Below are positions 3,709 through 40,392 of a stretch of 41,827 nt of DNA, piece after piece. The notes under the pieces were generated by a model that saw nothing but the letters and a program-made list of their open reading frames with translations, searched no databases and was not told where the DNA came from. A program made the position numbers and the translations under genes. The first letter of the stretch is position 1; each line of letters opens with the position of its first letter. The DNA is from Sulfurovum sp. (GTDB lineage: Bacteria; Campylobacterota; Campylobacteria; Campylobacterales; Sulfurovaceae), in assembly GCA_028696055.1 (NCBI GenBank), contig JAQVHV010000004.1, positions 1 through 41,827 of the forward strand. Reading direction: 5' to 3'.

Positions 3709-3709
3709 C

Positions 3710-4832: not shown

Positions 4833-4848
4833 TTTTCGGAACCGAAAA
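4833..4848. repeat. Perfect 16-bp palindrome between mltD-like gene and rlpA
   Basis: TTTTCGG and CCGAAAA face each other across AA. It sits 8 bases after the transglycosylase stop. It may be a weak hairpin slowing transcription or an RNA-processing site; no T-run follows beyond the stem. Confidence 0.35.
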
Positions 4849-4907
4849 GCTAGGATAAAGTGAAATAAAGAGATAATAAGAACTACTATATTGAGAGCGG
4901 GACTGCT

Positions 4908-5690: not shown

Positions 5691-5713
5691 GCCTGCAGTT
5701 ATGAGGAGTAATA

Positions 5714-7283: not shown

Positions 7284-7313
7284 TGTATAATAACGAAACT
7301 TGAAAGGCGGCCC

Positions 7314-7778: not shown

Positions 7779-7795
7779 AAAAGGATTGTTAGCCC

Positions 7796-9349: not shown

Positions 9350-11148
9350 AATATAAATTTATACTTTTGTTGTTTGTCGCGGTATGGGCGGTAATGATCG
9401 CCAGACTCTATCATCTAAGTATCAAATCAAACTACTACTACGAAGAATTGGCGCAGGAGAATATCGAACGTAAACAGTTCATTAAACCGGTTAGGGGGGA
9501 GATCACCGACAGTCATGGCAATCTCCTTGCGATGAACCAGATGGGTTTTTCGGTCTCTATCCTCCCTCACCTGAAACGAAACCCGGAAAAGCTCGAAGAA
9601 ATTATCAACAGGATCGTAGAGACCTTTCCCGATCTTAATAAAACAGTCATGATGAAAGTCTATGACAAACATAACTCTCCTTATAACCATGAGTACATCA
9701 AGGTAGTGGATTTTATCCATTACCCTGATATGATGGGCGCCTACCCCTCTTTGAGCCTCCATCCCGAGATCAAGATCGAAGCGGAGACAAAGCGCTACTA
9801 TCCCTACGGAGTCTACTCTGCACATATTGTCGGCTATACCGGAAAGTCAAACCAGAAAGAGAATGATCAAGATCCGGTGGTCAAAGAGATAGGGAAGGTC
9901 GGGAAAAGCGGCCTGGAGAAACAGTATAACGATGTATTGCAGGGTGAGCTGGGGCATCTCGTCAGCAAAGTAACGGCGACCAATAAAGCCATCGAAGTGA
10001 TCGACAAGGTCCCTCCCAAAGACAATAGAAACATTCAGCTCAATATCGATATCAACCTCCAGAAGATGATACATGACCGTTTCGGAGAGGACTCCGGAGT
10101 GGCGATCGTGATGCGTACAAACGGAGATATCCTTGCTGCAGTCAGCTATCCTTCTTTTGATCCCAACCTTTTTGTAGGGGGGATCAGCCATAAAGACTGG
10201 CAGGCGCTGCAGGAGAATGTGGATAAACCATTTACCAATAAGGTGATACATGGTGCCTATCCTCCCGGTTCCACGATCAAGATGGGAATGGCGCTGGCTT
10301 TTTCCAAAGCCAAAGAGGGTATCCTGGAGAGCGAAGAGCACTGTGCTGGCCATATCACCTTGGGAAAGAGCAATCACAAGTTCCGGTGCTGGTCACGCTG
10401 GGGACACGGAAAGGTCGATCTCAAGAAGGCGATCAGGGAGAGTTGCGATGTCTATTTTTACAACAAGAGCCTCAAGGTGGGGATCAATGCCATGTCGAAA
10501 TATCTCAAAGAGTTTGGTCTTGGCGTCAAGACAGGCATCGATCTACCCAAAGAGTATGCAGGTGTGATGCCCGACAAGGAGTGGAAGCAAAAACGTTATA
10601 AACAGCCCTGGTATATGGGGGAGACCGTCATCGCTGCGATCGGGCAGGGGTATGATCTTGTGACGCCATTACAGGTAGCGCGTCATACCGCCCTGATTGC
10701 GACCGGAAAACTCCCTACACCAAAGCTGGCGCAGGTAATTGATGGTAAAAAGGTAGAAAAAGAGGGTAAACCGGTCACTTTGCATCAGCGCTACCTGCAG
10801 ACGATCAGAGAGGGGATGTATGAGGTGTGCAACACACGAAAAGGTACGGGATACAGTACATTGAGCAAACTTCCTGTCGTCGTAGCGGGGAAGACGGGTA
10901 CCTCACAGGTTACTTCTATCCCTCAGTCCACAATGAAGCGCCTTAAAGAGGAAGAGATGGAGTATTACCACAGATCCCATGCATGGATCACGACCTATGC
11001 ACCCTACAAAGATCCTGAGTATATCGTCACGGTCCTCGTAGAGCACGGTGGACACGGGGGGAGTACAGCCGGACCGATCGCGGCAGATATCCACAAGTGG
11101 CTTTATAAAAATGGGTACTATAAACAGTCTGTTGCAGATGAGTTTTGA
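9346..11148 (+). CDS. mrdA: Penicillin-binding protein 2 (elongasome transpeptidase)
   Basis: A 600-residue class B PBP that cross-links peptidoglycan during cell elongation. It has one N-terminal membrane anchor (about 4-20), a dimerisation/pedestal region (RGEITDSHGNLLA) and a transpeptidase domain with the three active-site boxes: Ser309 in GSTIK, SCD (366-368) and KTGT (516-519). Length and box spacing match PBP2 rather than PBP3. It is the last gene of the envelope run that begins at tatD; its ATG overlaps the upstream membrane-protein gene (ATGA). Confidence 0.96.
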   Translation: MKYKFILLLFVAVWAVMIARLYHLSIKSNYYYEELAQENIERKQFIKPVRGEITDSHGNLLAMNQMGFSVSILPHLKRNPEKLEEIINRIVETFPDLNKTVMMKVYDKHNSPYNHEYIKVVDFIHYPDMMGAYPSLSLHPEIKIEAETKRYYPYGVYSAHIVGYTGKSNQKENDQDPVVKEIGKVGKSGLEKQYNDVLQGELGHLVSKVTATNKAIEVIDKVPPKDNRNIQLNIDINLQKMIHDRFGEDSGVAIVMRTNGDILAAVSYPSFDPNLFVGGISHKDWQALQENVDKPFTNKVIHGAYPPGSTIKMGMALAFSKAKEGILESEEHCAGHITLGKSNHKFRCWSRWGHGKVDLKKAIRESCDVYFYNKSLKVGINAMSKYLKEFGLGVKTGIDLPKEYAGVMPDKEWKQKRYKQPWYMGETVIAAIGQGYDLVTPLQVARHTALIATGKLPTPKLAQVIDGKKVEKEGKPVTLHQRYLQTIREGMYEVCNTRKGTGYSTLSKLPVVVAGKTGTSQVTSIPQSTMKRLKEEEMEYYHRSHAWITTYAPYKDPEYIVTVLVEHGGHGGSTAGPIAADIHKWLYKNGYYKQSVADEF

Positions 11149-11168
11149 CAGGCTTTAGGGGTTTTATC

Positions 11169-11711
11169 CTAGAACTGCCATCCGAAATAGACATATAAAA
11201 AACCGATGGTCTTATAACTGGTAAACGAATAGGACGGTATATAGGAAAAATTCAGAGTAAAGTCATCTATATAAAAAGAGCTTACAGGTGCAATTAGCGC
11301 TATCGGTCTATATTGATACTCCCCGTCATCTTGGCGCATCTTTTTGACGCTGACCACTCCTGCAAGTCCTACCGAGAGATCAAACCATGGGGTCAGAGGT
11401 TTTTCAAAACGGATCGATTTTCCGACGGCGGCATAGGCCTGGAAGTTTTTGTTCGAGTCATTCAGTATCATGGTATGGTAGGTAGTATAAAAATCCCCGT
11501 ACTCCGTAAAGTAGTCTTGTTCATATCCCAGTCCCAAATTGTATTCATTCAATTTATTTCCGTTATCTAAATCTTTTTCATGAACAGTAAAACCGCTTAA
11601 GAGTATACGTTTATTGACATCCTCACCATTTAGAGAGGTACTGAAAACAAGCAATGCCAGCGAGAAGATAAATTTGTTGAACCGATACACTTTATACTCC
11701 TTTTTTTCCAA
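11169..11711 (-). CDS. Hypothetical secreted outer-membrane beta-barrel-like protein
   Basis: A 180-residue protein with a signal peptide after a charged start (KFIFSLALLVFSTSLNGED) and alternating polar/hydrophobic strands rich in Tyr and Phe. It ends in FGWQF, and a C-terminal phenylalanine is the usual BAM recognition residue of barrels. The size would fit an eight-stranded barrel like OmpW or PagP, but no family is recognised. It is convergent with mrdA and divergent from kpsS, with a shared 171-base upstream region containing a perfect inverted repeat. Function unknown. Confidence 0.7.
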   Translation of the reverse strand: MEKKEYKVYRFNKFIFSLALLVFSTSLNGEDVNKRILLSGFTVHEKDLDNGNKLNEYNLGLGYEQDYFTEYGDFYTTYHTMILNDSNKNFQAYAAVGKSIRFEKPLTPWFDLSVGLAGVVSVKKMRQDDGEYQYRPIALIAPVSSFYIDDFTLNFSYIPSYSFTSYKTIGFLYVYFGWQF

Positions 11712-11735
11712 ATTGGGTTGTTACATCATAGCATT

Positions 11736-11760
11736 GATTATCTTATATTATAAGATAATC
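11736..11760. promoter_or_regulatory. Perfect 10-bp inverted repeat in divergent hypothetical-OMP/kpsS region
   Basis: GATTATCTTA and TAAGATAATC face each other across TATTA. It sits 24 bases upstream of the minus-strand gene and 123 bases upstream of kpsS, so it could be an operator for either, or a transcript-end hairpin for leftward-reading RNA. A/T-rich arms argue for a protein-binding site over a terminator. Confidence 0.4.
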
Positions 11761-11793
11761 AAATATTATTTTTGATTACGTTTTTAATAACGC

Positions 11794-11811
11794 GTTGTTA
11801 TAGTCGTTATA
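11794..11811. repeat. Tandem 9-bp repeat upstream of kpsS
   Basis: GTTGTTATA is followed directly by GTCGTTATA. Read on the minus strand this gives TATAACGAC then TATAACAAC, sharing the TATAACG core with the 11-bp tandem repeat upstream of the glmS remnant (17936-17957). It lies about 70 bases before the kpsS start and may be a shared capsule-regulator site. Confidence 0.3.
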
Positions 11812-11882
11812 AGAGAAAGATGATAAAATTCGAAGAATTGTTATTTATCTCTATGAGAGGGGAAAAGTAAGGGGGGAGGATT

Positions 11883-13088
11883 ATGAACAAGATAGGAGAT
11901 CTTAAAGATCAAAATATACTCTTTCTGCAAGGTCCGATGGGGCCGTTTTTTAAAAAACTTGATATGCTTTTCAGAGAAGATGGTGCCACGACTTACAAGA
12001 TCGGTTTTAACTTCGGTGACTACTTCTACTCCCATAAAGACAACTATGTCCCCTACAAAAAAACGCCTGCACAGTGGCCGGAGTTTATCAGGGCTTTTTT
12101 GACCGAAAAGAAGATCGACAAGATCTTTCTTTTCGGTGATTGCCGCTATTATCAAAAGATCACCAGAAAGATCGCGTATGAGAACGGTATCGATGTCTAT
12201 GTCTTTGAAGAGGGATATGTCAGGCCGCACTATATCACGATGGAGAAGTTCGGTGTCAATGGCTTCAGCACACTGTCAAGGGAAGCAAACTTTTACCTGA
12301 ATCTTGAAAAAAGAAACTCTATCACACCCGTACATGCCAAACAAAGCAAATATCAAATGATCAAAAGCGCTGTACACTACTATCTGCTCTCCAACTTCTT
12401 TTGGTTTCAGTATCCCCATTATCTGCACCATCGCGACTTTTCCGCGCTGAAAGAGTTCTTTTACGGGGTAAGGGATGTCTGGAGGAAAGGAGTCTATAAA
12501 GTCGTTGAAAGAGACTATGAAAAGCTGATCACACATACGCTTTCAAAAAAATACTATTTCGTTCCGCTGCAGACGCACAATGACTTTCAGATCCTTCAGC
12601 ACTCGCATTACGGTTCGATCGAGAAGTTCATTATGGAGGTGCTTGAGTCTTTTGCATACCATGCGCCAAAGGAGTGCTACATTGTATTTAAGCACCATCC
12701 GGTGGACAGAGGGCGCAAAAACTATCATGCTTTCATTATGGAGCAGGCGGAGTCTCTGGGTGTCAAAGAGCGTATACTGGTGTTTCACGATGTCTATCTC
12801 CCCACATGCCTTCAGCATGCGATAGGGACGATCACGATCAACAGCACCGTCGGGCTTTCTGCTATCGGGTACGATATCCCGACACTGACTCTGGGAGATG
12901 CAGTCTATGATATCGAAGGATTGACCAACAAAGGAACACACCTGCACCGCTTCTGGCACCACCATAAAGCACCTGATCCGGAGCTTTATCAGAAGTTCAG
13001 AGGCTATCTTGTCGAGCATACGCAGCTCAACGGCAGTTTCTACGGGCTTATACCAAAAGAGTTCACAGATCAGCAGAACATAGTCTAA
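11883..13088 (+). CDS. kpsS: Capsule Kdo-linker glycosyltransferase KpsS
   Basis: A 401-residue cytosolic protein of the Capsule_synth family. In group 2 capsules KpsS adds the first beta-Kdo to lyso-phosphatidylglycerol, starting the linker on which the polymer is built. Visible features: FLQGPMGPFFKKL near the N-terminus, FEEGYVRPHYITMEKFGVN (the EEG/EDG-F/Y-R family motif), IVFKHHPVDRGRKNY and GTITINSTVGLSAIGYDIPTLTLG. A GGGGGGAGG ribosome site precedes the ATG. It opens the capsule locus and would act with the KpsC proteins at 24.1 and 26.5 kb and with Kdo from kdsC. Confidence 0.92.
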   Translation: MNKIGDLKDQNILFLQGPMGPFFKKLDMLFREDGATTYKIGFNFGDYFYSHKDNYVPYKKTPAQWPEFIRAFLTEKKIDKIFLFGDCRYYQKITRKIAYENGIDVYVFEEGYVRPHYITMEKFGVNGFSTLSREANFYLNLEKRNSITPVHAKQSKYQMIKSAVHYYLLSNFFWFQYPHYLHHRDFSALKEFFYGVRDVWRKGVYKVVERDYEKLITHTLSKKYYFVPLQTHNDFQILQHSHYGSIEKFIMEVLESFAYHAPKECYIVFKHHPVDRGRKNYHAFIMEQAESLGVKERILVFHDVYLPTCLQHAIGTITINSTVGLSAIGYDIPTLTLGDAVYDIEGLTNKGTHLHRFWHHHKAPDPELYQKFRGYLVEHTQLNGSFYGLIPKEFTDQQNIV

Positions 13089-13099
13089 CAACACTATGA

Positions 13100-13105
13100 T
13101 ATAAT
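13100..13105 (+). promoter_or_regulatory. -10 box before the lipoprotein-kpsD genes
   Basis: A consensus TATAAT lies 31 bases before the lipoprotein start. The sequence from this box to AGGGT is similar in content and spacing to that before the glmS remnant at 17989, suggesting duplicated promoter-leader DNA within the capsule locus. No -35 box is obvious. Confidence 0.45.
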
Positions 13106-13135
13106 TTCACGATAAATCCCAAGGGTAAGGAAGAG

Positions 13136-13291
13136 ATGTCCAAGTTACGATTTTTTTTATTTTTTTCACTTTTATTTATAACAGGCTGTACACATCAGCC
13201 TCAACCCTATTCAGCCCACAGCGATACAGAGAACTCCTATAGTCTGGAATCCATCGCATACGCATATCAACAGAAGGCAAACCATGAGTAG
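13136..13291 (+). CDS. Small lipoprotein upstream of kpsD (51 aa, absent from ORF track)
   Basis: The reading frame begins MSKLRFFLFFSLLFITGC and runs 51 residues to a TAG at 13289-13291. The lipobox ITGC puts the acylated Cys at residue 18, leaving a mature peptide of about 34 residues rich in Ser, Tyr and Gln. A GGTAAGGAAGAG ribosome site precedes the ATG. Its last 8 bases overlap the kpsD start, so KpsD translation is probably coupled to it. No family is recognised; by position it may assist KpsD assembly in the outer membrane. It might also be only a leader ORF. Confidence 0.65.
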   Translation: MSKLRFFLFFSLLFITGCTHQPQPYSAHSDTENSYSLESIAYAYQQKANHE

Positions 13292-14885
13292 AACTATCCG
13301 ATATCTTTTATTGGTGACAGCATTTTTGACTCTGAGCTTTGGTATCGAGGTCGAGCCTGAAGTCATCAAAGACCAAAGCAAGCTGGAGAGTGCCAACAAG
13401 CACAAAGTCTATTTCGGAGAACAGCTTTTTAAGGGACACTTTACGAACAAGTCCCAGTTTCGTGAGAACCCGGAGTATCTGCTGAAAGTAGGGGATATCA
13501 TTCATATCAATATCTGGGGTGCACGCGAGTTTCAGGGGGATGTGCCGATTGACGGCAGAGGGAATATCTTTATTCCGAAGATAGGAGTCATCCATCTCGA
13601 AGGGGTAAAGAACGGGAACCTTCAGTCTACCCTGACCACCCATCTGGAAAAAACATTCAATGACAATGTGTTTATCTATGCCAATGTCAGGGACTATCAG
13701 CAGCTTTCAGTCTATGTTTCGGGATCGGTGAAAAATGTAGGATTGTATGACGGCGTCTCCAATGATTCTGTCCTTCAGTTCCTTGACAAGGCGGGCGGCA
13801 TCGTTTCGGGAGAGGGGAGTTACAGAAACATCCATATCCTGCGTAACAACCGATTGGTGAAAAAGATCGATCTCTATGCATTCCTGCTCGATGGCTACAG
13901 GGAGAGTTTCCCGTTCAGAGACGGAGATACGATCCTGGTGCAGCCTATGAAGCACTATGTGGAAGTGGAGGGGGATGTCAGCCGCCCTTATATCTTCGAG
14001 CTCAAAGAGAAAAATGACACAGTAAACAGGCTGATGAAGTACACATTGCCCAAACCCGGTGTCAATCGTTTTACGCATATCAAACGTCTGGGGATGAGAG
14101 AGGTCAGCCAGGACTATACATTGGATCAGGCAGGAGAGGTCAAAGTCAAGAGCGGAGAGAAGATCATCTTTACGAGCAACAGCCATCTGCAGAGTTTCAG
14201 TATAGCCATAGAGGGGGAGCACTCAGGCGTGAAACACATCTCTGTTCCGAAAGGTACCTCCCTCTACAGTCTGCTCAAGCAGGTCAACTACACGCCGCTT
14301 TCCCACATTCAGAGTATCCAGCTCTACAGAGAGTCAGTCGCACAAAGACAGAAAGAGCTGCTTGAGACAAACCTTAAAGACCTGGAGGCCAAAGTATTTA
14401 CCTCCGGCTCCTCCACACCCGAAGAGGCTCTCATTCGCAACAAAGAGGCAGAGCTTGTCATGGAGTTCATCAAGCGTGCCAAGCAAGTAGAGTTCAAAGG
14501 GCAGATCATTCTTTCGGCACAGGAAGACCTCCGCAATACGCTTCTTGAGGACGGAGACAGGATCTATATCCCCAGAAAAAGCAACCTTGTCACGGTCCAG
14601 GGCGAGGTCAACATCCCCAATACCCTTACCTACAAAAGCGGCGAAAGCCTGCGTTACTATATCGACGCCTGCGGTGGATACACCGAAAGGGCCGACAGTT
14701 CCGAGGTACTCCTGATCAGATCCAACGGGAAGGTTGAAAAATACAGCGGCGCAGCGGTCCAGCCGGGTGACTCGATTCTGGTTCTGGGCAAAACAGATAC
14801 CAAGAACCTGCTTCTGGCAAAAGACCTTACGCAGATCATCTACCAGGTTGCCGTGGGTGCGGCAGTCGTGCTCAAGTCGTTTTAG
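13284..14885 (+). CDS. kpsD: Capsule export outer-membrane/periplasmic protein KpsD
   Basis: A 533-residue polysaccharide-export (Wza/KpsD, OPX) family protein. It has a signal peptide (RYLLLVTAFLTLSFG), a polysaccharide-export domain (about 64-150; LLKVGDIIHINIWG and IDGRGNIFIPKIGVI), then SLBB-type beta-grasp repeats (VSGSVKNVGLYDG; VEGDVSRPYIFEL; VQGEVNIPNTLTYKSG). KpsD forms the outer-membrane exit for group 2 capsule and docks on KpsE. A GAAGG ribosome site inside the lipoprotein gene precedes its ATG. The length is close to E. coli KpsD. Confidence 0.92.
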   Translation: MSRTIRYLLLVTAFLTLSFGIEVEPEVIKDQSKLESANKHKVYFGEQLFKGHFTNKSQFRENPEYLLKVGDIIHINIWGAREFQGDVPIDGRGNIFIPKIGVIHLEGVKNGNLQSTLTTHLEKTFNDNVFIYANVRDYQQLSVYVSGSVKNVGLYDGVSNDSVLQFLDKAGGIVSGEGSYRNIHILRNNRLVKKIDLYAFLLDGYRESFPFRDGDTILVQPMKHYVEVEGDVSRPYIFELKEKNDTVNRLMKYTLPKPGVNRFTHIKRLGMREVSQDYTLDQAGEVKVKSGEKIIFTSNSHLQSFSIAIEGEHSGVKHISVPKGTSLYSLLKQVNYTPLSHIQSIQLYRESVAQRQKELLETNLKDLEAKVFTSGSSTPEEALIRNKEAELVMEFIKRAKQVEFKGQIILSAQEDLRNTLLEDGDRIYIPRKSNLVTVQGEVNIPNTLTYKSGESLRYYIDACGGYTERADSSEVLLIRSNGKVEKYSGAAVQPGDSILVLGKTDTKNLLLAKDLTQIIYQVAVGAAVVLKSF

Positions 14886-14898
14886 GCAGCCTGAATTT

Positions 14899-15678
14899 AT
14901 GGTAAGAAGAAGCTCCTTCAGTATCTTCAGGTCGGTCATCACCGCACTCTTTTTACGTGAAGTGCAGACACGTTTCGGTACGAAGAAGCTGGGGTATTTC
15001 TGGGCGATCTTTGATGCGATGCTGATGGTCCTTGTCTTTGCGGGGCTGAAGGCGGCGATTGCCGAAAACGCGATGCCGGGTGTAGACTTCCCGGTATTTC
15101 TTGCCAGCGGCTTTCTGGCATTTTTCTTATGGAAAAACATTGTAAGCCGCTCTTTGAATGCATTCAGTGCCAACTCCGCCCTCTTTGCCTACAAACAGGT
15201 CAAACCTTTCGATACGGTATTGACACGGGTTCTGCTTGAGATCCTTGTAAGCACGATGGCAACCCTGGTCTTTATCGCGATCGGACTCTATTTTGAGTTT
15301 GAGATCGCTGTGCAGGATTTTAATATGGTCATCCTTGCGGTGCTCTGGCTGATCCTTTTTGGATTTGGTTTTGGGCTGATGAGTGCGGTCTTTGCGCACT
15401 TCTATGAGACCTTCGGGAAGATCATCAATGTCATTATGACACCGCTGCTGTTTGTCTCCGCATTGATGTATACGGTAGACTCTCTGCCTCCGGTCCTCAG
15501 GGAGCTTATCCTCTACAACCCGCTGGTGCATTTCATAGAGATGATACACGGCTACTACTTTACTGCGCTCGATACGAAGTATGTGGACTATGAGTATATG
15601 CTCTACTGGACCTTGATACCCCTCTATATCGGGCTCTACTTCTATGTCAAAGGGGAGCAAAGGATCCTCTCGACATGA
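14899..15678 (+). CDS. kpsM: Capsule ABC transporter permease KpsM
   Basis: A 259-residue ABC-2 type permease with about six membrane helices. The track start at 14734 lies inside kpsD in another frame; the ATG at 14899, 13 bases after the kpsD stop, gives the canonical N-terminus (FLREVQTRFGTKKLGYFWAI). It would pair with KpsT to export lipid-linked capsule polymer across the inner membrane. Its stop overlaps the kpsT start (ATGA). Confidence 0.93.
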   Translation: MVRRSSFSIFRSVITALFLREVQTRFGTKKLGYFWAIFDAMLMVLVFAGLKAAIAENAMPGVDFPVFLASGFLAFFLWKNIVSRSLNAFSANSALFAYKQVKPFDTVLTRVLLEILVSTMATLVFIAIGLYFEFEIAVQDFNMVILAVLWLILFGFGFGLMSAVFAHFYETFGKIINVIMTPLLFVSALMYTVDSLPPVLRELILYNPLVHFIEMIHGYYFTALDTKYVDYEYMLYWTLIPLYIGLYFYVKGEQRILST

Positions 15679-16337
15679 TAGCGCTGAGAAACGTCACCAA
15701 GTACTACCAGACCAAACATGAAAGAAAGTACATCCTGGACAATGTGACCTTCACGATCCCTTCGGGGGTCAATGTCGGTATCCTCGGGCGCAACGGTGCG
15801 GGCAAGTCCACGCTCCTTCGTATGCTGGGCGGTATCGACTTCCCCAACTCCGGGCACATCTCCTCTCCCAACAGTTTCTCCTGGCCGATGGGGCTGGCAG
15901 GCGGCTTTCAGGGCTCGATGACCGGACGGCAGAATGTACAGTTTGTCAGCCGTATCTACGGGAAGAGCGAGTACGAGATCAAAAAGGTCATCGAATCGGT
16001 CAAAGAATTCTCCGAGCTCGGGGACTACTTCGATATGCCGATCAAGACCTACTCAAGCGGGATGAAGTCACGGCTCAGTTTCGGGATGAGTCTCTCTTTT
16101 GACTTTGATTATCTGATCATCGATGAGACCCTCTCTGTGGGAGACAAGAACTTTCAGCAGAAGTCAAAAACAGCACTGCGCAAAAAGATAGAGAACTGCC
16201 ATATCCTTCTGGTCAGCCACTCGATGCCGGTGCTCAAAGAGATGTGCGATGTGGGTATCGTCGTGCACAACGGTCAGCTGCACTACTGTGACAGGATCGA
16301 AGATGCGATAGAAAGATACAATCAAATAAATGAATAA
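15675..16337 (+). CDS. kpsT: Capsule ABC transporter ATPase KpsT
   Basis: A 220-residue ATPase of the polysaccharide-export ABC subfamily. Walker A is GRNGAGKST (38-46), the signature is YSSGMKSRL, Walker B is YLIIDETL, and the H-loop His is in LLVSHSM. There is no C-terminal carbohydrate-binding extension, as in KpsT (and unlike O-antigen Wzt), which fits a polymer of non-fixed length. Overlaps kpsM by 4 bases. Confidence 0.95.
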   Translation: MIALRNVTKYYQTKHERKYILDNVTFTIPSGVNVGILGRNGAGKSTLLRMLGGIDFPNSGHISSPNSFSWPMGLAGGFQGSMTGRQNVQFVSRIYGKSEYEIKKVIESVKEFSELGDYFDMPIKTYSSGMKSRLSFGMSLSFDFDYLIIDETLSVGDKNFQQKSKTALRKKIENCHILLVSHSMPVLKEMCDVGIVVHNGQLHYCDRIEDAIERYNQINE

Positions 16338-28262: not shown

Positions 28263-28639
28263 TTGCACCCCAAGGGTACTTCCTTCGGGCGCAAGTTTTT
28301 TCTCTTAGTGAAACGTAGCGGTGACGAAGTCATCACTCTCTTTGAGAAAAAATGAAGAGATAAACACCACCACAGCTTTATTGAGATGGAAATATGAGTG
28401 AACTACCAAATCTCTAAAGAAGATTTGGCTTCCTTGGCTGAGTCTGCCCATAGGGTCTGTGTTGGTTCTCGACAATCCCTTGATAGGGATTTTACGGAGG
28501 TCGAACTCCAACTCATTCCCTACAGGTCTCACATACTCATATATCCAAAGGCGTTACTTTCGACAGTTCCTGCCGTAGATAAGAAATGATAGCGAAAAAA
28601 GATATACAAAATCAAGGCTAACGCCTTGTACGCATTCAT
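28263..28639. other. Non-coding or degraded stretch, possible transposon remnant
   Basis: Two short overlapping ORFs are present (28398-28589 plus, 28305-28532 minus). Neither has a recognisable domain or ribosome site. By position, just before an IS200/IS605-like end, the plus-strand one could be the tail of a TnpB relic, but no TnpB zinc-ribbon or DDE-like motif is seen. Confidence 0.3.
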
Positions 28640-28733: not shown

Positions 28734-28761
28734 AACGTTATATATTTCAGTATACAATGAT
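28734..28761. promoter_or_regulatory. ModE-box-like operator 1 upstream of the TonB receptor operon
   Basis: AACGTTATATA, six bases (TTTCAG), TATACAATGAT. The ModE consensus I recall is ATCGNTATATA-N6-TATATAACGAT. The left arm matches at 10 of 11 (N counted) and the right arm at 9 of 11, with the exact 6-bp spacer. It lies immediately upstream of the TATAAT -10 box, where a bound repressor would block RNA polymerase. Confidence 0.72.
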
Positions 28762-28766
28762 ATAAT
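28761..28766 (+). promoter_or_regulatory. -10 box of the TonB receptor operon
   Basis: Consensus TATAAT between the two ModE-like sites. It would start the transcript near 28773, leaving a leader of about 70 bases that contains operator 2. Confidence 0.55.
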
Positions 28767-28794
28767 CCTTGCCGAAAAAGTTATTTTTTTAATT

Positions 28795-28822
28795 ATCGTT
28801 ATATATATAATTATACAATGGA
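28795..28822. promoter_or_regulatory. ModE-box-like operator 2 upstream of the TonB receptor operon
   Basis: ATCGTTATATA (perfect left arm), TATAAT as the 6-bp spacer, then TATACAATGGA (weaker right arm). It agrees with operator 1 at 21 of 24 core positions. Centre-to-centre distance from operator 1 is 61 bp, close to six helical turns, so both would lie on the same DNA face. Confidence 0.68.
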
Positions 28823-28843
28823 TAGCTACGTCAAGGAGTATGA

Positions 28844-30844
28844 ATGAAAAAAATTGTCTTATCGGGGGTGGTTGCCGCTCTCCTGGTACTAAACCTTCAT
28901 GCAGAGGTGTTTGAACTGGGGAAGATCAACGTTGCCAGCGAGCTGAATGAAGAGAGGGTCTTTGAGGAGACGACGACCGGGGAAACCATACAGCGGGACA
29001 ATGCGGTAACCGTCAGTGAAGCACTGGACAATATCAGCGGGGTTACGCAGGATACCCAGGGGGGAAGAGCAGAATCAACACTCTATATCAGGGGATTTGA
29101 TGCAAGGAGAATAGGGTTTTTTATCGATGGTGTACCAGTCTATGTCCCCTATGACGGGAACTTTGACTATGGGCGTTTCCTGACTGCCGATATCGCAGAG
29201 ATCGATGTATCAAAAGGGTACTCCTCTGTCGCCTATGGCGCCAATACGATGGGCGGGGTGATCAATGTGATCTCCAAAAAGCCTACCAAAGCGCTGGAAG
29301 GCTCCATCCGAAGCCATGTCGTATTTGACCGTGACGCCGGCTTCGCGAAGCAGGTAAGCGCTCTCAATGTCGGGACACTGCAGGAGAACTACTATATCCA
29401 GTTGGGCGCAAACTACGCCAACCAGGACCACTTCAGGCTGAGTGATGATTTTGAGCCGACCGCCTATCAGCCGGCAGGCGACCGTCTGCGTTCCGAGACA
29501 AAAGATCACAAGGTGAACCTCAAAGCAGGGTATTTTATCGATGCAAATACAGAGCTGGCATTGGGGTATATCAACCAAAAAGGGGAGAAGCAGCAGCCAC
29601 CTGCGACAGATACGGCGTTCAGCAAAGAGAAATACTGGGACTGGCCCTACTGGGACAAGGAGACCGTTTACCTCAATGGGCAGAAGACTTTCGATCACAG
29701 CTATCTGAAAGCGCTGCTCTATTATGACAGGTTCAAAAACTCTTTATACTCCTATGCGGATGATACCTACAGCACCTTCAACAGCAAAGGGTTTACCTTT
29801 AAGAGCAAATACGATGACTACAGCTACGGCGCACGTCTCTCCTATGGAACGGAGATCGGGAAACACCTGATCACACTCTCTGCGAATTATAAAACAGACG
29901 TACACCGCGGCTATGATATCGACAAAACCAATTCCGCTGTTACGATGATCGAAAAATATGAAGACCGTACCCTCTCGCTCGGGATGGAAGATGCCTACAG
30001 GCTTTCTGATCAGCTGGAGCTTCTGGGCGGCATCAGCTATGATAGGAAAAAAGGTGAATATGCCTATGATGAGGACTCGGCGACAGAAGGGATCCCGCTG
30101 GGGACGCAGGACACCTACAACCCGCAGATCGCATTGGTCTATAAGGCAGATGCAAGCAGCATCTACAGGGCAAGTATTGCCAGAAAGACTTATCTGACGT
30201 CGATGAAGGACAGATACAGCAGAAGACTGGGCTCGGCAGAACCGAACCCGGATTTGGAGTCCGAGAAATCCACCCATTTTGAGCTGAGCTATGATAAAAA
30301 GATAGACAATACACAGATAGGCATTACCGGTTTCATCGCCCGGGTGGATGACACGATCCAGAATGTGATTATCGACGACAGCGGTACACCCGGAGATACG
30401 AAAGATGATCTCTTCCAAAACCAGAATATCGGCAAGTTTGAACATCGCGGTATAGAGCTGGATCTGAATTATCGGGGGGAGGGTTTCCAGGCGGGCGGTA
30501 ACTACACCTATCTCTCCCTGGTCAACAAAAGTGACAATGATGCAAAACTGATCGATGTACCAAAACACCAGCTCTTTGCGTATGTCCAAAAAGATCTGAC
30601 CCCAAATCTCTTGCTTTACGGAAATGTCAAAATGAGAAAAGGGGCCTATGAGCAAAAAATGGATCGCAGCTACGTCATCAACCCTACATTTACCACACTC
30701 GATGCCAAAGTGGTCTATACCCCGTGGGAAGATCTTACCACCGAGTTCGGTATCAAGAATCTCACGGATAAGTATTATGCCTATGACAGTGCGTTCCCTA
30801 TGCCAGGGAGGGAGTTCTTTGTGACAATGGAGTATAAGTTCTGA
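28844..30844 (+). CDS. TonB-dependent outer-membrane receptor, probable molybdate/tungstate-responsive
   Basis: A 666-residue TonB-dependent receptor: signal peptide (KKIVLSGVVAALLVLNLHA), plug domain (about 40-150; VTVSEALDNISGVTQDTQGGR, LYIRGFDARRIGFFIDGVPVY, GANTMGGVINVISKKPT) and a 22-strand-type barrel ending in FFVTMEYKF with the terminal Phe. The TonB box is not clear; FELGKINVAS after the signal may serve. An AAGGAG ribosome site precedes the ATG. Family members import ferric siderophores, haem, cobalamin and other chelates. The ModE-like operators and the coupled binding protein point to Mo or W here; that is inference. Confidence 0.93.
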   Translation: MKKIVLSGVVAALLVLNLHAEVFELGKINVASELNEERVFEETTTGETIQRDNAVTVSEALDNISGVTQDTQGGRAESTLYIRGFDARRIGFFIDGVPVYVPYDGNFDYGRFLTADIAEIDVSKGYSSVAYGANTMGGVINVISKKPTKALEGSIRSHVVFDRDAGFAKQVSALNVGTLQENYYIQLGANYANQDHFRLSDDFEPTAYQPAGDRLRSETKDHKVNLKAGYFIDANTELALGYINQKGEKQQPPATDTAFSKEKYWDWPYWDKETVYLNGQKTFDHSYLKALLYYDRFKNSLYSYADDTYSTFNSKGFTFKSKYDDYSYGARLSYGTEIGKHLITLSANYKTDVHRGYDIDKTNSAVTMIEKYEDRTLSLGMEDAYRLSDQLELLGGISYDRKKGEYAYDEDSATEGIPLGTQDTYNPQIALVYKADASSIYRASIARKTYLTSMKDRYSRRLGSAEPNPDLESEKSTHFELSYDKKIDNTQIGITGFIARVDDTIQNVIIDDSGTPGDTKDDLFQNQNIGKFEHRGIELDLNYRGEGFQAGGNYTYLSLVNKSDNDAKLIDVPKHQLFAYVQKDLTPNLLLYGNVKMRKGAYEQKMDRSYVINPTFTTLDAKVVYTPWEDLTTEFGIKNLTDKYYAYDSAFPMPGREFFVTMEYKF

Positions 30845-31641
30845 TGAAAAAAATTATTTTATTTTTTATGCTACTGCTGTCAGTACACCTCCACGCCGAT
30901 GCAAAACCGCTGCGTGTTGCGGTGATCGGCGGTATCACGATGAGCGGATTGTGGGAAGAGATCTCTGCCGCGTTTGAAAAAAAGTACGGGATACCAACCG
31001 AGCTCGTCGTCACGGGACCCAAAGGGGTCCTGAACGCCTATGCGCAAAAGCATCCGGTGGACTTCATCACGATGCACTCCAGCGACACGATCTCCAATCT
31101 CGCTTCAAGCGGGATGATCGAAGGGCTGACTCCGTGGATACACAATGCCCAGATGCTTATCTCGGAGCGATCCAACCCTGCAAAGATCAGCGACAGCGAC
31201 ACGATCGAGGCCGCGCTGAAGAAGATCGAGGAGACCAACAGCACCTTCATGATACACCTGAGCGGAGGGACCTTTGAAGTCTTTCATGAAATAAGCAGCC
31301 GCTATGCATTTTATCCCAATGTCGTTCTGACACAAAAAAAGCACGGTTTTCTAAAAGATGTGGTATCCCGGAAAGCCTATACGCTCTTTGGTGTGATCCC
31401 TTTTCTGATGCAAAAACACTCCGATCCGGATATCAGAGGGTATCTGATCGATGCGGAGGCGCTGCACAGACCCTATCTGGCAGCAACTGGGACCATCGAA
31501 AGGATAGGGGAAGAGCGCTACCGAAATGCCAGGCTCCTGGTAGAGTTTTTGACTTCTCCTGAAGTACAGCAGCTGATCCGTGACTTCAGGCTTAAAGCGT
31601 TCCCGCAGGTCCCTGTCTTTTTCCCGGCAAGAGCCAGATAA
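30844..31641 (+). CDS. Periplasmic binding protein, TupA/ModA-like (oxyanion)
   Basis: A 265-residue secreted substrate-binding protein. Signal peptide KIILFFMLLLSVHLHADA, then RVAVIGGITMSGLWEEISAAF, ELVVTGPKGVLNAYAQ and a hinge region followed by IHLSGGTFEVFHEI. The lobe pattern (AAFEKKYGI...GPKGVL...VDFITMHSSD) recalls the tungstate-binding TupA and related PBP-like proteins. Its ATG overlaps the receptor stop (TGATG), so the two are translationally coupled. No permease or ATPase follows in this operon; one elsewhere, or an outer-membrane-linked role, must be assumed. Other anions are possible. Confidence 0.8.
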   Translation: MKKIILFFMLLLSVHLHADAKPLRVAVIGGITMSGLWEEISAAFEKKYGIPTELVVTGPKGVLNAYAQKHPVDFITMHSSDTISNLASSGMIEGLTPWIHNAQMLISERSNPAKISDSDTIEAALKKIEETNSTFMIHLSGGTFEVFHEISSRYAFYPNVVLTQKKHGFLKDVVSRKAYTLFGVIPFLMQKHSDPDIRGYLIDAEALHRPYLAATGTIERIGEERYRNARLLVEFLTSPEVQQLIRDFRLKAFPQVPVFFPARAR

Positions 31642-31734
31642 AGAGGACCTGGAAAATACAGCATCAGTGCATTACGTCCGATACATGTATGCGCATAGAT
31701 CTATGCGTTGTCAAAATCTTTTCAAGGAGATGAA

Positions 31735-32541
31735 ATGGGGATAGAAAAAACAAATCTTTCGGAAATAGATTTTTCCAATCTTTATAGCCGGCAAATGGAA
31801 AACTCGACGTTTCAGGGCAAAAGCGCAGCAGACTGGGATGAAAAATCGAAAAACTATCTTGCATCGATGAAAGAGAGCGACTATCTCAAGAGAATGATGG
31901 AGATGATCGATCTGACGGGTGCGGAAACGCTGCTTGATATCGGCTGCGGGCCGGGGACCCTCTCTGTTCCTTTGGCTAAAAAGCTCAAACATGTCTTTGC
32001 GCTTGACTATTCCAACGGGATGTTGGCCAGCCTGGCTGAAGCGTGCCGGGCGCAAGGGGTGGAAAATGTTATCCCTTTGAACCGTTCATGGGAGGAGGAT
32101 TGGAGTGATATACCGCAAGCTGATATCGTGATCGCATCAAGATCACTGGAGGTGAAAGAGATAAAAAAGGTATTGGAAAAAATCGTATCCAAGGCAAAAA
32201 GAAAAGTCTATCTTACCTTCAAAGTCGGTGGAAGTTTTGTTGATGAAGAGATACTGGAGCAGATCCAACGCAAAGTCATACCCAGACCCGATTATATCTA
32301 TCTTGTCCATACGCTTCATCAGATGGGTATCTATGCCAAAATTGATTTTATACGATCCAAAAACAATAAATTCAAGAGTAACGATAGCGAAAGTTTTATC
32401 AAGAAGGTACGGTGGAGCCTTGGGGAACTCACTCCTTTTGAAGAGGAAGCGCTGAAAACCTACTTTCAGAATGTTTATCATAAAAAACAGGATCAAAGTT
32501 TTACAGACTGGGCATTGCTTTCATGGGAGGTCAATCTATGA
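31735..32541 (+). CDS. Class I SAM-dependent methyltransferase in the Mo/W-type operon
   Basis: 268 residues from the ATG at 31735 (AAGGAGATGAA upstream; the track's TTG start at 31708 has none). Motif I is LLDIGCGPGTLSVPLAKKL, followed by the acidic post-I ALDYSNGML and motif-IV-like ADIVIASRSL. Substrate cannot be read. Being in a metal-uptake-type operon it may methylate a chelator or a cofactor precursor; it could equally be an unrelated passenger. The 93-base gap after the binding protein has no obvious terminator. Confidence 0.85.
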   Translation: MGIEKTNLSEIDFSNLYSRQMENSTFQGKSAADWDEKSKNYLASMKESDYLKRMMEMIDLTGAETLLDIGCGPGTLSVPLAKKLKHVFALDYSNGMLASLAEACRAQGVENVIPLNRSWEEDWSDIPQADIVIASRSLEVKEIKKVLEKIVSKAKRKVYLTFKVGGSFVDEEILEQIQRKVIPRPDYIYLVHTLHQMGIYAKIDFIRSKNNKFKSNDSESFIKKVRWSLGELTPFEEEALKTYFQNVYHKKQDQSFTDWALLSWEVNL

Positions 32542-32643
32542 AATCTATGGTTTTCGGGCTATACTTTCCAGGTGTCAAGAGATTTGTACTATACTATTAG
32601 ATATGATGAAGATAAATACCAATTTAATCGTAAGGAGAATAAA

Positions 32644-33225
32644 ATGAAAAAATGGCGTTTGGATTTTAGAATCTGGCACTGGGTGCATGCGGCGGTGGTG
32701 TTGGGGCTGCTGGGGACGGTGTTTTTGAGAAAAACGTTTTTAAGCTGGAGAACCAACAGCGAACTTCTCAGCCAGAAGCTTGCCGAAATGGACCTTACTG
32801 TAACCGTAGAACAGGCAAAAGCACTTGCCACTACCATCCGTGCACCGATGTGGGAGTGGCATATCCTCCTGGGGTATGCGCTGGCAGCATTGCTGGTCTT
32901 GAGGATCCTGCTCTTCTTTACTAAAAACGGAAAACGAAACTACCAAAACCTCAAAGAGGAGACGCTTCATAAAAAGATCGTCAAACTGGGCTACATCGCG
33001 ATCTACGGGATTTTGATCTTTATGGCTGCAAGCGGGCTGATCCTCCATTTCCATGAAGCACTCGGCCTTACCGAAGAGGGCGCACATTCGCTCAAAGAGC
33101 TTCACGAGCTGGTCTATAACGCGGTACTCATCTTTGTCGTATTGCATATCATCGGTGTGGTCATCGCGGAAACCAGGGATGAAAAGGGGATCATCTCAGA
33201 GATGATTCACGGCGGGGAGAAATAG
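32644..33225 (+). CDS. Cytochrome b561-like membrane protein
   Basis: 193 residues from the ATG at 32644 (AAGGAG 8 bases upstream); the track start at 32572 is unsupported. Four membrane helices with histidines placed for two b-type haems: WHWVHAAVVLGLLGTVF (helix 1), WEWHILLGYALAALL (helix 2), GYIAIYGILIFMAASGLILHFHEAL (helix 3), LHELVYNAVLIFVVLHIIG (helix 4). It resembles bacterial cytochrome b561/Ni-Fe hydrogenase b-subunit type quinol oxidoreductases. In this operon it might donate electrons for reduction of an imported metal complex, which is speculation. A TATACT box in the upstream gap could give it its own promoter. Confidence 0.85.
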   Translation: MKKWRLDFRIWHWVHAAVVLGLLGTVFLRKTFLSWRTNSELLSQKLAEMDLTVTVEQAKALATTIRAPMWEWHILLGYALAALLVLRILLFFTKNGKRNYQNLKEETLHKKIVKLGYIAIYGILIFMAASGLILHFHEALGLTEEGAHSLKELHELVYNAVLIFVVLHIIGVVIAETRDEKGIISEMIHGGEK

Positions 33226-34657: not shown

Positions 34658-34734
<77 letters not shown>

Positions 34735-34767
34735 ACAGTTAAAAAGTAAGGATTTAAAAATCCTGAG

Positions 34768-34842
34768 TGGATGGGGTAGAGGGATTCGAACCCCCGAATA
34801 TCGGCACCAGAAACCGAGGCCTTACCGCTTGGCGATACCCCA
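34768..34842 (-). tRNA. tRNA-Gln (CTG)
   Basis: 75 nt on the minus strand with encoded CCA; begins TGGGGTATCGCC, typical of Gln. Anticodon stem TCGGT/GCCGA with loop TTCTGGT gives anticodon CTG. It differs from the TTG copy at the anticodon's middle-left base and one neighbouring stem base. Confidence 0.94.
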
Positions 34843-34884
34843 ACAAGTTATTTCTCATAAGGCTCTATTGCTTATGTGGACGGC

Positions 34885-34913
34885 ATTATAGCTTAAATGA
34901 AAGAGATTGTCAA
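34885..34913 (-). promoter_or_regulatory. Consensus promoter of tRNA unit 1
   Basis: On the minus strand: TTGACA (34913-34908), 17 bases, TATAAT (34890-34885). Both boxes are perfect sigma70 consensus. It reads into tRNA-Gln(CTG) and tRNA-fMet copy 1. Confidence 0.85.
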
Positions 34914-34978
34914 TTAAATTGCAATAAAAAACAATATTGATCTAGTTTTTTAATGGATTGAATTTTAGTGGTTGAAAT

Positions 34979-35055
<77 letters not shown>

Positions 35056-35100
35056 ACAGTTAAAACTATATAAAATGGTTAAAAATTATATATTGAAGAT

Positions 35101-35177
<77 letters not shown>

Positions 35178-35209
35178 ACAGTTAAAAAGTAAGGATATAA
35201 AATCCTAAG

Positions 35210-35284
35210 TGGATGGGGTAGAGGGATTCGAACCCCCGAATATCGGTACCAAAAACCGAGGCCTTACCGCTTGGCGATACCCCA
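35210..35284 (-). tRNA. tRNA-Gln (TTG)
   Basis: 75 nt on the minus strand with encoded CCA. Anticodon stem TCGGT/ACCGA with loop TTTTGGT gives anticodon TTG. First gene after the promoter of unit 2. Confidence 0.94.
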
Positions 35285-36542: not shown

Positions 36543-38159
36543 ATGAAAAAATTTCTGAGCAACCTGAGCCTCCACTCGATCAATTTTTTAGGGATCATTG
36601 TACTTTTTCTCTTCGCACTGCTTTTTACCTTCCTGGTGATCTTTGAAGAGTACCGGGATTTTGAGCAGGAATCGATCCATATCCGCAATGCCTACCTTGC
36701 CACCCAGAAAGCAAAAGCCAAAGAGGAGACACAAAGGGTCCTGGAGTATATCAACTACTCCGACACTTCGATGAACGGGAAATTGGATCCCGATCAGATC
36801 AAAGCACACGTCATCAACTCCATAGAACACCTCTTTGACCGCAAAAGCGGGAGCAGCTACATCTTTATCTACACGCTGGAGGGGGTCAATATCTCTGATC
36901 CCAACAAACCAGGCAACCGCGGCAAGAACATGATAGACCTTCAGGATACCAGCGGTAAGTATATCATCAAAGCGCTGATCAACGAGGCTGAAAGCGGAGG
37001 AGGGTATGTAGCGTATCTCTGGGAAAACCCGGTCAATGCCCAACTCTCTGCCAAGGTCTCGTACGCCGCTGCATACAAACCGTGGAACTGGATGGTGGGA
37101 ACAGGTGTCTACCTCGATGAGATCGATGCGATGATCAATGCAAAAAAAGAGAAGATGAAGGAGCGCCTGATCAGATACATCATGGAGGTGCTGACCCTCT
37201 CATCCATTCTCTTCTGGATCGCCTGGGGCGGGATCAAGCTGATCAACGGGGTGATACAGAAGGAGATGTCGACATTCAGGGACTTTTTCCGGCAGTCGGT
37301 ACTGTACAATATCGTGATCGATAAACGGCAGATCAAGATCAAAGAGTTTCAGGTGCTCGTCGCCTATGTCAACGAAATGGTGAGCGCCATCCATGAGAAA
37401 AACAGGGAGCTCAGGGAGCTCAATGCCTCACTGGAGGAGAAAGTACTGCAAAAAACCGCCAAACTTCAAGACCAGATGCAGTATAATGAGAAGCTGGTCG
37501 CCGCACAGGACAGCTTCATCAAGCACTCTATCCATGAGGTCAATACGCCATTGGCGGTGATCATGACCCATATCGATATCTATAAGATGAAGCATGGAGA
37601 GAACAGGTATCTTACCAAGATCGAAGCGGCAGCGAAAATGATCTCCACGATCTATGAAGACCTGAGCTATATGGTGAAAAGAGACCGTCTGCATTATGAA
37701 AAAGAGTGGATCGATATCAAAGCCTATCTGCTTTCTCGCATCAAATTTTTCGAGGAGATCGCATACAGCAATGAGCATCGGATCGTGACGGAGCTTTGCG
37801 AGTGCGGAAATATATGGTTCAACGATCTTGAACTGCAGCGCATCATTGACAACAATCTCTCCAATGCTATAAAATATGCAAAGAGGGGAACGGATATCAG
37901 GATAGAGCTTGGCGAAGAAGAGGGGGATATCATGATACGGTTTGTGACCCACTCTAGGAAGATCGAGGATACAAAGAAGATCTTTGAGGCGTTCCACAGG
38001 GAAGACAAGGTCAAGTCAGGGTTCGGGCTGGGGCTTGAGATCGTAGGGGAGATCTGCGAAAAAGAGGGGATCACGATCGATGTGGTTTCCAGTGAAGCGA
38101 TGACGGTCTTCAGTTACCGGTTTAAGAAAGGGAAAAAAGATGAGAATACTCCTGCTTGA
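36543..38159 (+). CDS. Cache-domain sensor histidine kinase with atypical catalytic boxes
   Basis: 538 residues: membrane helix 1 (about 14-38), periplasmic Cache_2-type sensor (about 45-200; KSGSSYIFIYTLEGVNISDPNKPG and PWNWMVGTGVYLDEID are classic), helix 2 (about 218-238), coiled coil, then HisKA-like and HATPase domains. The H-box is SIHEVNTPLAVI (His331), with Val-Asn where most kinases have Leu-Arg. The N-box is DNNLSNAIKYA and the G2 box is GFGLGLEIV, but the G1 Asp-x-Gly is missing (THSRKIED). Small carboxylates are typical Cache_2 ligands. It overlaps the response regulator by 20 bases and may act mainly as a phosphatase. Confidence 0.9.
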   Translation: MKKFLSNLSLHSINFLGIIVLFLFALLFTFLVIFEEYRDFEQESIHIRNAYLATQKAKAKEETQRVLEYINYSDTSMNGKLDPDQIKAHVINSIEHLFDRKSGSSYIFIYTLEGVNISDPNKPGNRGKNMIDLQDTSGKYIIKALINEAESGGGYVAYLWENPVNAQLSAKVSYAAAYKPWNWMVGTGVYLDEIDAMINAKKEKMKERLIRYIMEVLTLSSILFWIAWGGIKLINGVIQKEMSTFRDFFRQSVLYNIVIDKRQIKIKEFQVLVAYVNEMVSAIHEKNRELRELNASLEEKVLQKTAKLQDQMQYNEKLVAAQDSFIKHSIHEVNTPLAVIMTHIDIYKMKHGENRYLTKIEAAAKMISTIYEDLSYMVKRDRLHYEKEWIDIKAYLLSRIKFFEEIAYSNEHRIVTELCECGNIWFNDLELQRIIDNNLSNAIKYAKRGTDIRIELGEEEGDIMIRFVTHSRKIEDTKKIFEAFHREDKVKSGFGLGLEIVGEICEKEGITIDVVSSEAMTVFSYRFKKGKKDENTPA

Positions 38160-38799
38160 AGATGAGCTGATGCTGCAAAGTGCCATTGTCGAGTATCTTA
38201 CGGCAACGGGGTATATCGTCGATGCTTTCGAAGACGGGGAGGAGGCCTACCAACAGATCAAAACAACCGCTTATGACCTCTTTGTCTTCGATATCAACAC
38301 CCCTTCGATCGATGGCCTTACCCTGCTTGAAAAACTCCAGAAAGAGAAGATCCATGTCCCCACGGTCTTTATCTCTGCGATCACCCAGATCGAACAGATC
38401 TCAAAGGCCTACGAACTTGGATGCTATGACTACCTCAAAAAACCTTTTCACCTCAAAGAGCTGACTTTGCATATAGAGCGGCTGCTCAAAATGGCAGACA
38501 TCCACTCAAAAAGCATCGTCAAGCTGAGCCGGATGTACAGCTATGACCTGGAGAAGGACAGGCTGCTCTTTGACAATGTCGAACAGGAACTCAAACCCAA
38601 GCATCAGCAGATCATGCGTCTGCTCGCCTCCAATGTGGAGAGGGTGGTGGACTTCGATATGCTCCGGCACTATGTGTGGGATGATATCCATGTGGATGCC
38701 GCAACGATCAGGGCCGAGATGCACAGGGTACGCCAGGCGCTCAAAGAGGATCTGATCGTTAGTATCAAGGGGATGGGGTACAAACTGGCAAAACACTGA
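38140..38799 (+). CDS. OmpR/PhoB-family response regulator
   Basis: 219 residues: receiver domain (LLLEDELMLQ; phospho-acceptor Asp51 in FVFDINTPSIDG; the conserved Lys in YLKKPFH) and a C-terminal winged helix (LRHYVWDD, then AATIRAEMHRVRQALKE). It is the partner of the overlapping kinase. Eleven-base tandem repeats 126 bases downstream, upstream of the porin gene, are a plausible binding site. It probably controls porin, DUF485 and actP genes, as inferred from adjacency and the sites. Confidence 0.93.
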   Translation: MRILLLEDELMLQSAIVEYLTATGYIVDAFEDGEEAYQQIKTTAYDLFVFDINTPSIDGLTLLEKLQKEKIHVPTVFISAITQIEQISKAYELGCYDYLKKPFHLKELTLHIERLLKMADIHSKSIVKLSRMYSYDLEKDRLLFDNVEQELKPKHQQIMRLLASNVERVVDFDMLRHYVWDDIHVDAATIRAEMHRVRQALKEDLIVSIKGMGYKLAKH

Positions 38800-38924: not shown

Positions 38925-38946
38925 ATGCTATGTTAATGCTATGTTC
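38925..38946. promoter_or_regulatory. 11-bp tandem direct repeat upstream of the porin gene, candidate response-regulator site
   Basis: ATGCTATGTTA is followed directly by ATGCTATGTTC. OmpR/PhoB-type regulators bind such 11-bp head-to-tail repeats. A partial further copy (CGCTATG) precedes. The second copy ends 96 bases before the porin start. Confidence 0.5.
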
Positions 38947-39042
38947 AGTTTTTATGATGTGAATGTTTGGAATTTTGAATCCTTTGCAAACCTTATTATT
39001 GAGATAAAAGGCTACACAAAGGGTTCTGCTAAAAGGAGAAAT

Positions 39043-40392
39043 ATGAAACTGATCAAGATGAGTCTTGCTGCTTCGCTTGCAGTAAGTCTGGCTGCAGCCG
39101 GCGGAGAGATCGCACCGGTGCAGGAAACCGCACCTTCGGCAGAGACGGAAGTCGATTACGGTACCGTGTTCGGGCAATTGCGTACTTTCTATATCGACAG
39201 GACCTACAAAGGTTCTATCGAGAACAACCGCAATTCACTGGCGACAGGTGGATATATAGGGTACAAAACACCGGACTTTCACGGCTTGAGCGCGACAGCG
39301 GCGCTTTACGGCGTGTATGGATTTGATATCCATGACGAGGATGCTGAGGCGGCGTGCGGATCAAGCTATGACCCCTCACTCTATGGCGATGGCTGCAAAA
39401 ACTATCTCTTCCTCGGTGAGGCATACCTGAACTATACGTATGAGAATACGACGCTTAAAGTCGGCCGACAGAAGCTTGATACGCCGCTTGCAGGGGCAGA
39501 CGATGCAAGAATGCTTCCGAACCTTTTTGAGGCGGCGGTCCTTACCAACAGCGACATCAAAGATACGACCCTGATCGCTGCGCATATCACCAAAGAGAGC
39601 GTGGGGACATTCGGGAACGCCTATCCCACCACTTCTCCAGGGTTACTTTCGCTTGCGATCCAGAGCGGTTACGGGTACGGCTACAAGCTTGGCACGAACG
39701 GCGAGTTCGCAGATATGGGCGAGATCGCACTGGGCACAGGGAATGATACTGCCGGTGTAACGGCCCTGGCGGCGATCTACAAAGGGATCGACAGGGTGAC
39801 GCTTCAGGCATGGGACTACTATGCGCATGATATCCTCAACGCACTCTACCTACAGGCCGATATCGGCTGGAACTGTATGGTGAATGATGCAGTGAAAATG
39901 AACGCCTCGCTTCAATATGTTAATCAAAGTGATATCGGCGATGCACTTGCGGGTAAAGTGGACAGCAACTACTGGGGTGCCAAACTGGGTGCTACCTATG
40001 GAAACTTGAGCGGATATGTTGCCTATTCTCAGACTGCAGACAGTAACGGTGCGGAAAATGGTGGTATCATCACTCCATGGGGAGGGATGCCGGCATTTAC
40101 GCAGGGGATGGTGACAAGACACCAGTTCTTCTCGGATACTGACAGCTATAAAGTTGCTGCGACCTATAACTTCAGTGATTATAATGTGAAGGCGACAGCC
40201 TATTTCGCCTCATTTGATGTAGGGCAGAGTGCAACCTATGCAACCGGGCTGGATACGAAAGAGAGCGGTTTTGATATCATCTACCAGGCGAGCAAAGATC
40301 TCCAGTACAGATTCAGAGGGAACTTCCCGAATAACTATGGTCCGACATATGACTGGGATGAATATAGATTTATCATAAACTATAACTTTTAA
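39043..40392 (+). CDS. OprD-like outer-membrane porin of the Campylobacterota type
   Basis: 449 residues from the ATG at 39043 (AAAAGGAGAA upstream; the track's 38941 lacks a site and lies in the operator). Signal peptide KLIKMSLAASLAVSLAAAGG, then a barrel of about 18 strands with typical phrases (TVFGQLRTFYIDRTY; KVGRQKLDTPLAGADDARMLPN; DWDEYRFIINYNF at the end with terminal Phe). The KVGRQ-LDTP-DDARM-PN block marks the OprD/OmpD-like family of this phylum, which takes up small anions and organic acids. It opens the acetate-uptake set. Confidence 0.9.
   Translation: MKLIKMSLAASLAVSLAAAGGEIAPVQETAPSAETEVDYGTVFGQLRTFYIDRTYKGSIENNRNSLATGGYIGYKTPDFHGLSATAALYGVYGFDIHDEDAEAACGSSYDPSLYGDGCKNYLFLGEAYLNYTYENTTLKVGRQKLDTPLAGADDARMLPNLFEAAVLTNSDIKDTTLIAAHITKESVGTFGNAYPTTSPGLLSLAIQSGYGYGYKLGTNGEFADMGEIALGTGNDTAGVTALAAIYKGIDRVTLQAWDYYAHDILNALYLQADIGWNCMVNDAVKMNASLQYVNQSDIGDALAGKVDSNYWGAKLGATYGNLSGYVAYSQTADSNGAENGGIITPWGGMPAFTQGMVTRHQFFSDTDSYKVAATYNFSDYNVKATAYFASFDVGQSATYATGLDTKESGFDIIYQASKDLQYRFRGNFPNNYGPTYDWDEYRFIINYNF

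Follow-up and report, generated by a model that had tools for sequence, protein, structure and literature searches.

The window, the whole 41,827-nucleotide stretch of DNA that was analyzed, lies on contig C34 of a Sulfurovum sp. MAG of 1.92 Mb (87% complete). On its plus strand, it encodes a TonB-dependent outer-membrane receptor (TonB_A, 666 aa, 28844–30844; Pfam PF07715 and PF00593), a periplasmic TupA-like binding protein (SBP, 265 aa, 30844–31641; PF13531), a class-I SAM methyltransferase (268 aa, 31735–32541; PF13649, with the ATG at 31735 as the best start) and a cytochrome b561-type membrane protein (193 aa, 32644–33225; PF01292). The receptor and SBP genes overlap as TGATG, while gaps of about 100 bp precede the methyltransferase and cytochrome genes, so that tight coupling is confined to the first two genes. 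A palindrome (CGCATAGATCTATGCG, window 31692–31707), located between the SBP and methyltransferase genes, is largely kept in close relatives.

Two ModE boxes are found upstream of these genes, both on the plus strand: box 1 (AACGTTATATA-TTTCAG-TATACAATGAT, 28734–28761) and box 2 (ATCGTTATATA-TATAAT-TATACAATGGA, 28795–28822). Each of them is 28 bp long, with 11-bp arms and an exact 6-bp spacer, and their starts are 61 bp apart. In line with the earlier description of two such sites around a TATAAT, they lie on either side of a predicted -10 element (TATAAT, 28761–28766) preceded by TGA, a likely extended -10 (TGATATAAT, 28758–28766, plus strand) that overlaps the end of box 1. The ModE consensus of E. 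coli is ATCGNTATATA-N6-TATATANCGAT (PMC545781). A pattern search of the window allowing up to two mismatches yielded four matches vs. 0.20 expected, with zero and one mismatch in the two operon boxes and two mismatches in each of the other two. We also employed a weight matrix derived from 16 sites ahead of modA, OprD-modA or modE-modA operons, all from other genomes; the training set included no orthologue of the window's promoter, and some of the training mod operons carry the receptor gene (L043, L044 and L046). With this matrix, which leans towards the E. coli consensus because its training sites were picked with that consensus, boxes 1 and 2 scored 25.1 and 25.3 bits, respectively, and the third-best place in the window scored 8.6 bits. 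Scores at the level of the boxes were absent from 78 Mb of first-order Markov sequence and from 20 Mb of 30%-GC sequence, so the predicted match to the ModE consensus lies far above chance. A generic promoter/terminator scan performed barely above shuffles and revealed no clear terminator.

Both operators are conserved in the orthologous promoters of related Campylobacterota. Alignment footprinted the two boxes in L033–L036, where they constitute, together with the -10 element (TATAAT or TATGAT in these four relatives) and the ribosome-binding site, the main conserved blocks of the upstream regions; in L032, box 2 is visible at the contig edge. In ten genomes, the motif (up to one mismatch) gave 73 matches over the two strands compared to 7 for the reversed control; the motif is nearly palindromic, and a single site may therefore be counted twice, once per strand. 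Spacing between the boxes of tandem promoters was 60–77 bp in most cases, 39–41 bp in two and 22 bp in one. The distance of 61 bp claimed for the window was confirmed, and its reading as a strict six-turn helical phasing was discarded in view of this variation. Just upstream of the operon promoter, an Rfam match to the Helicobacter sRNA HPnc0580 was detected on the minus strand (window 28486–28590, 88 bits).

Searches with HTH_1 and TIGR00637 in the source MAG (87% complete) returned only a LysR-type regulator and no ModE, and modA was not found in this MAG either. Since the three closest relatives (92–94% complete) all carry ModE, missing assembly is the likely reason for these absences, gene loss being the alternative. 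The search for a ModE homologue proposed with the original prediction was negative in the source MAG and positive in 24 of the 26 receptor genomes, where strong TIGR00637 matches were obtained (E 4e-21 or better; frames of about 257–300 aa). ModE from a close relative comprises HTH_1 and two TOBE stretches (molybdate-binding domains) and aligns to the E. coli ModE structures, with a well-kept HTH closely resembling that of E. coli. Since 227 of the 298 genomes of the class have a ModE-type match, the presence of ModE alone is weak evidence. The failure to find ModE in the source MAG is what one would expect if the boxes were recognized by a different regulator of similar motif and their connection with molybdenum were coincidental. 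Against this, the matrix was derived from mod promoters, nearly all receptor genomes encode ModE, and mod genes are linked to the receptor, which makes such a coincidence very improbable. A ModE-type operator lies upstream of the receptor operon, as in members of the ModE regulon, and control of this operon by ModE is well supported.

Linkage to mod genes was observed in several arrangements. The modABC and OprD-modA operons of close relatives are headed by the same boxes, which often occur in pairs and are also located between modE and modA. Three Sulfuricurvum MAGs have the receptor gene embedded in the mod cluster, in the order modE, box, modA, TonB, receptor, TupA-like SBP and modD, with a methyltransferase gene before modD in two of the three; the longer Sulfuricurvum contigs (L044 and L046) carry Mop, modB and modC after modD. 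Upstream of the receptor, L049 has a directly adjacent Mop gene and L053 a nearby one. Altogether, 34 of the 42 distinct receptor loci have, within 8 kb, either a box scoring 15 bits or more or a mod/Mop gene, and 50 boxes were counted at receptor loci vs. 0.5 expected. In the receptor tree, a clade of 26 members (support 100/99) that includes the window's receptor is wholly linked, and the unlinked relatives fall outside it. The receptors of L147–L151 and L055–L057 (34–38% identity) have neither a box nor a mod gene nearby, and therefore the wider receptor family need not be molybdenum-specific. Separately, the receptors of L146–L151 (36–39% identity) are linked to a binding protein, a FecCD permease, an ATPase and a methyltransferase without ModE boxes, and L146 alone among them has a ModE/Mop-type gene nearby.

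The box sequence and geometry, the architecture of ModE (HTH plus TOBE/Mop) and the position of boxes ahead of modABC are shared with the ModE regulon of E. coli and relatives, which controls modABC. In contrast to that classical regulon, the likely targets here also include TonB receptors, a TupA-like SBP, methyltransferases and other genes, and the boxes are often paired. A locus from another phylum, known from annotation only, places a TonB receptor and an ABC transporter beside modE/G and modABC.

The nearest named relatives are MAGs of Campylobacterota with the labels Sulfurovum, Campylobacterales or Epsilonproteobacteria, and many carriers of the receptor bear the names of sulfur-cycle genera. 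In all, 26 loci homologous to that of the receptor were retrieved. The distribution of the receptor is patchy: a relative at E < 1e-60 was found in 45 of the 298 class genomes, about ten of them exceeding 40% identity, and it is absent from six further genomes belonging to the genus of the source MAG.

The search for further ModE sites revealed three more boxes in the source genome, all on contig C85 (L030), at positions 10834, 16026 and 16065, in and before a second cluster (2318–16100). This cluster encodes three TonB receptors, several periplasmic binding proteins (the one scanned being PF01497, Peripla_BP_2), a FecCD-type permease, an ATPase and a luciferase-like monooxygenase, the permease and ATPase having been assigned by eye from translated ORFs. 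A type II importer, MolABC of Haemophilus influenzae, has a binding protein that takes molybdate and tungstate (PMC4031551). The C85 cluster, here under ModE boxes, appears to resemble it in its Peripla_BP_2-type SBPs and its putative FecCD-type permease and ATPase, and differs in its combination with three TonB receptors. A 419-aa ORF of the same cluster (L030 6512–7771) fuses a methyltransferase to a bacterial-type globin; relatives encode the two by separate genes.

In agreement with its original assignment, the product of the first gene has the Plug and beta-barrel domains of a TonB-dependent receptor, following an N-terminus that is signal-peptide-like. Its predicted structure (pTM 0.85) matched TonB receptors in a fold search, including siderophore and haem receptors, and its best family scores were likewise obtained with haem/haemoglobin and siderophore receptor models. 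Assignment to the haem or siderophore receptors was nevertheless rejected on score: it reached 156.6 bits with the haem receptor model TIGR01785 (cut-off 316.85) and 132.3 bits with the siderophore receptor model TIGR01783 (cut-off 223.5), and no named receptor family of NCBIfam gave a score above its threshold. Plug, barrel and fold are common to the TonB-dependent metal receptors (siderophore, haem, BtuB and OprC), from which the window receptor differs in its position under ModE boxes and in its sub-threshold family scores.

These similarities are also what would be expected if the receptor imported haem or a siderophore loaded with iron or another metal, and if ModE control were indirect, e.g., because Mo-limited cells change respiration or share chelators. 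FecCD-type ABC genes are also used for iron compounds, and siderophore-type TonB receptors are activated in Azotobacter vinelandii in the absence of molybdenum (PMC9542535). We nevertheless regard import of iron or haem as unlikely, given that the haem model yielded about half of its cut-off (157 vs. 317 bits), that mod operons contain the receptor gene and Mop genes adjoin it elsewhere, and that the SBP coupled to it most resembles TupA/ModA types.

The SBP had been described as TupA/ModA-like and coupled to the receptor by TGATG, and its overlap and fold agree with this description. Profile searches matched the TupA structures 3muq, 3lr1 and 5my5, and the predicted structure (pLDDT 89) had TupA 5my5 as its best fold match (E 1.5e-15, TM 0.67–0.70), with ModA structures matching the model as well. 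The proposed pocket of TupA comprises TTTS, His59, Arg118, Thr124 and Asp170 (PMC5517513). In a profile alignment, remote as it is, His59 and Thr124 are kept in the SBP as H78 and T143, while TTTS, Arg118 and Asp170 are replaced by VIGG, H138 and G183, respectively. The SBP was rejected as a TupA proper, with 28 bits in the NCBIfam TupA model (cut-off 400) and most pocket residues changed. It therefore has fold and profile similarity in common with the tungstate-binding TupA and lacks TTTS, Arg118 and Asp170, and its operon has no tupBC partner. Because the pocket differs, the ligand may differ from that of TupA too, judging by these replacements.

A methyltransferase of the same family is encoded near 30 of the 42 distinct receptor loci. 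In L041 (8930–10003), a member of this family has an extra N-terminal membrane segment, which resembles a small membrane protein whose gene neighbours that of the receptor in L038, L045 and L054. Only three loci, those of the window, L032 and L034, were found to have the cytochrome b561 gene after the receptor; the L033 contig ends before that position. Its membership in the system is doubtful, it was dismissed as a conserved partner on account of this distribution, and the redox release formerly attributed to it found no support.

Taken together, the central proposal, a TonB operon under ModE operators as a candidate outer-membrane Mo/W uptake system, was supported by the conserved operators, by ModE in relatives and by receptor genes inside mod operons. 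Very probably, then, the region constitutes a ModE-regulated, TonB-energized outer-membrane uptake operon for molybdenum (or tungsten). Since the receptor and its partners stand under a molybdenum sensor, and often inside a molybdate-transport operon, we strongly infer that Mo/W is taken up by the operon, and Campylobacterota of the sulfur cycle probably pump Mo (or W) across the outer membrane rather than relying on diffusion.

Repression, substrate, direction of transport and hand-over can be pictured as follows. When molybdate is sufficient, molybdate-loaded ModE would occupy the two boxes around the -10 element and block transcription, and a shortage of Mo/W would lift this repression. The receptor would capture scarce Mo/W species at the cell surface, using energy from TonB-ExbBD, and the coupled TupA-like protein would probably take the ligand in the periplasm. 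Because the operon encodes no permease, we infer that the ligand is then passed on to ModBC, or else to the MolABC-type transporter encoded by the C85 cluster, which is co-regulated. Speculatively, the methyltransferase, and in other species also a luciferase-like monooxygenase and a globin, may process the ligand.

A narrower version of this Mo/W uptake, contained within it as a subtype, is that the substrate of the receptor and SBP would be an organic Mo/W chelate or thiomolybdate and not bare molybdate. Large or scarce ligands are the usual cargo of TonB receptors, the recurrent methyltransferase, luciferase-like monooxygenase and globin genes suggest ligand chemistry, and the SBP pocket departs from that of TupA. 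Furthermore, many of the carriers bear the names of sulfur-cycle genera, and sulfide converts molybdate to thiomolybdates (PMC3528336). Weighed against the fact that no chelator biosynthesis genes were identified, these points leave such a complexed substrate at slightly less than even chances. We put forward yet more tentatively the full pathway, in which TonB energy would bring in a complexed species (chelate or thiomolybdate) for a TupA-like protein with a remodelled pocket, the methyltransferase would process it, and the whole would be widespread, though patchy, in Campylobacterota under ModE.

An experimentally demonstrated TonB-dependent Mo or W receptor was not found in the open-access literature searched, and a 2020 review of molybdoenzymes in pathogens mentions neither TonB nor porins. 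In Pseudomonas aeruginosa, molybdate is taken up by a T6SS-ModA-IcmP route (PMC8602904), which has a dedicated outer-membrane step for molybdate in common with the step predicted here; by contrast, P. aeruginosa secretes ModA, and the outer-membrane partner there, IcmP, is of the metalloproteinase type. If a TonB receptor belongs to the molybdenum regulon, Mo/W would join the metals that TonB serves, and the acquisition of Mo/W at the outer membrane could be tested directly. Such a receptor would also bear on the molybdoenzyme supply of sulfur- and nitrogen-cycling Campylobacterota in sulfidic or Mo-poor settings.

Several other features of the window were recorded. An OprD-family porin (window 38941–40392) follows a two-component system (36543–38799) and has no ModE box near it; in relatives, OprD-family porins precede modA. 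Five consecutive tRNA matches are located on the minus strand (window 34661–35284). Finally, a protein encoded at window 23241–24098 matches a phage 5-bladed propeller receptor-binding domain (PF21311) and adjoins a capsule synthesis gene at 24104.
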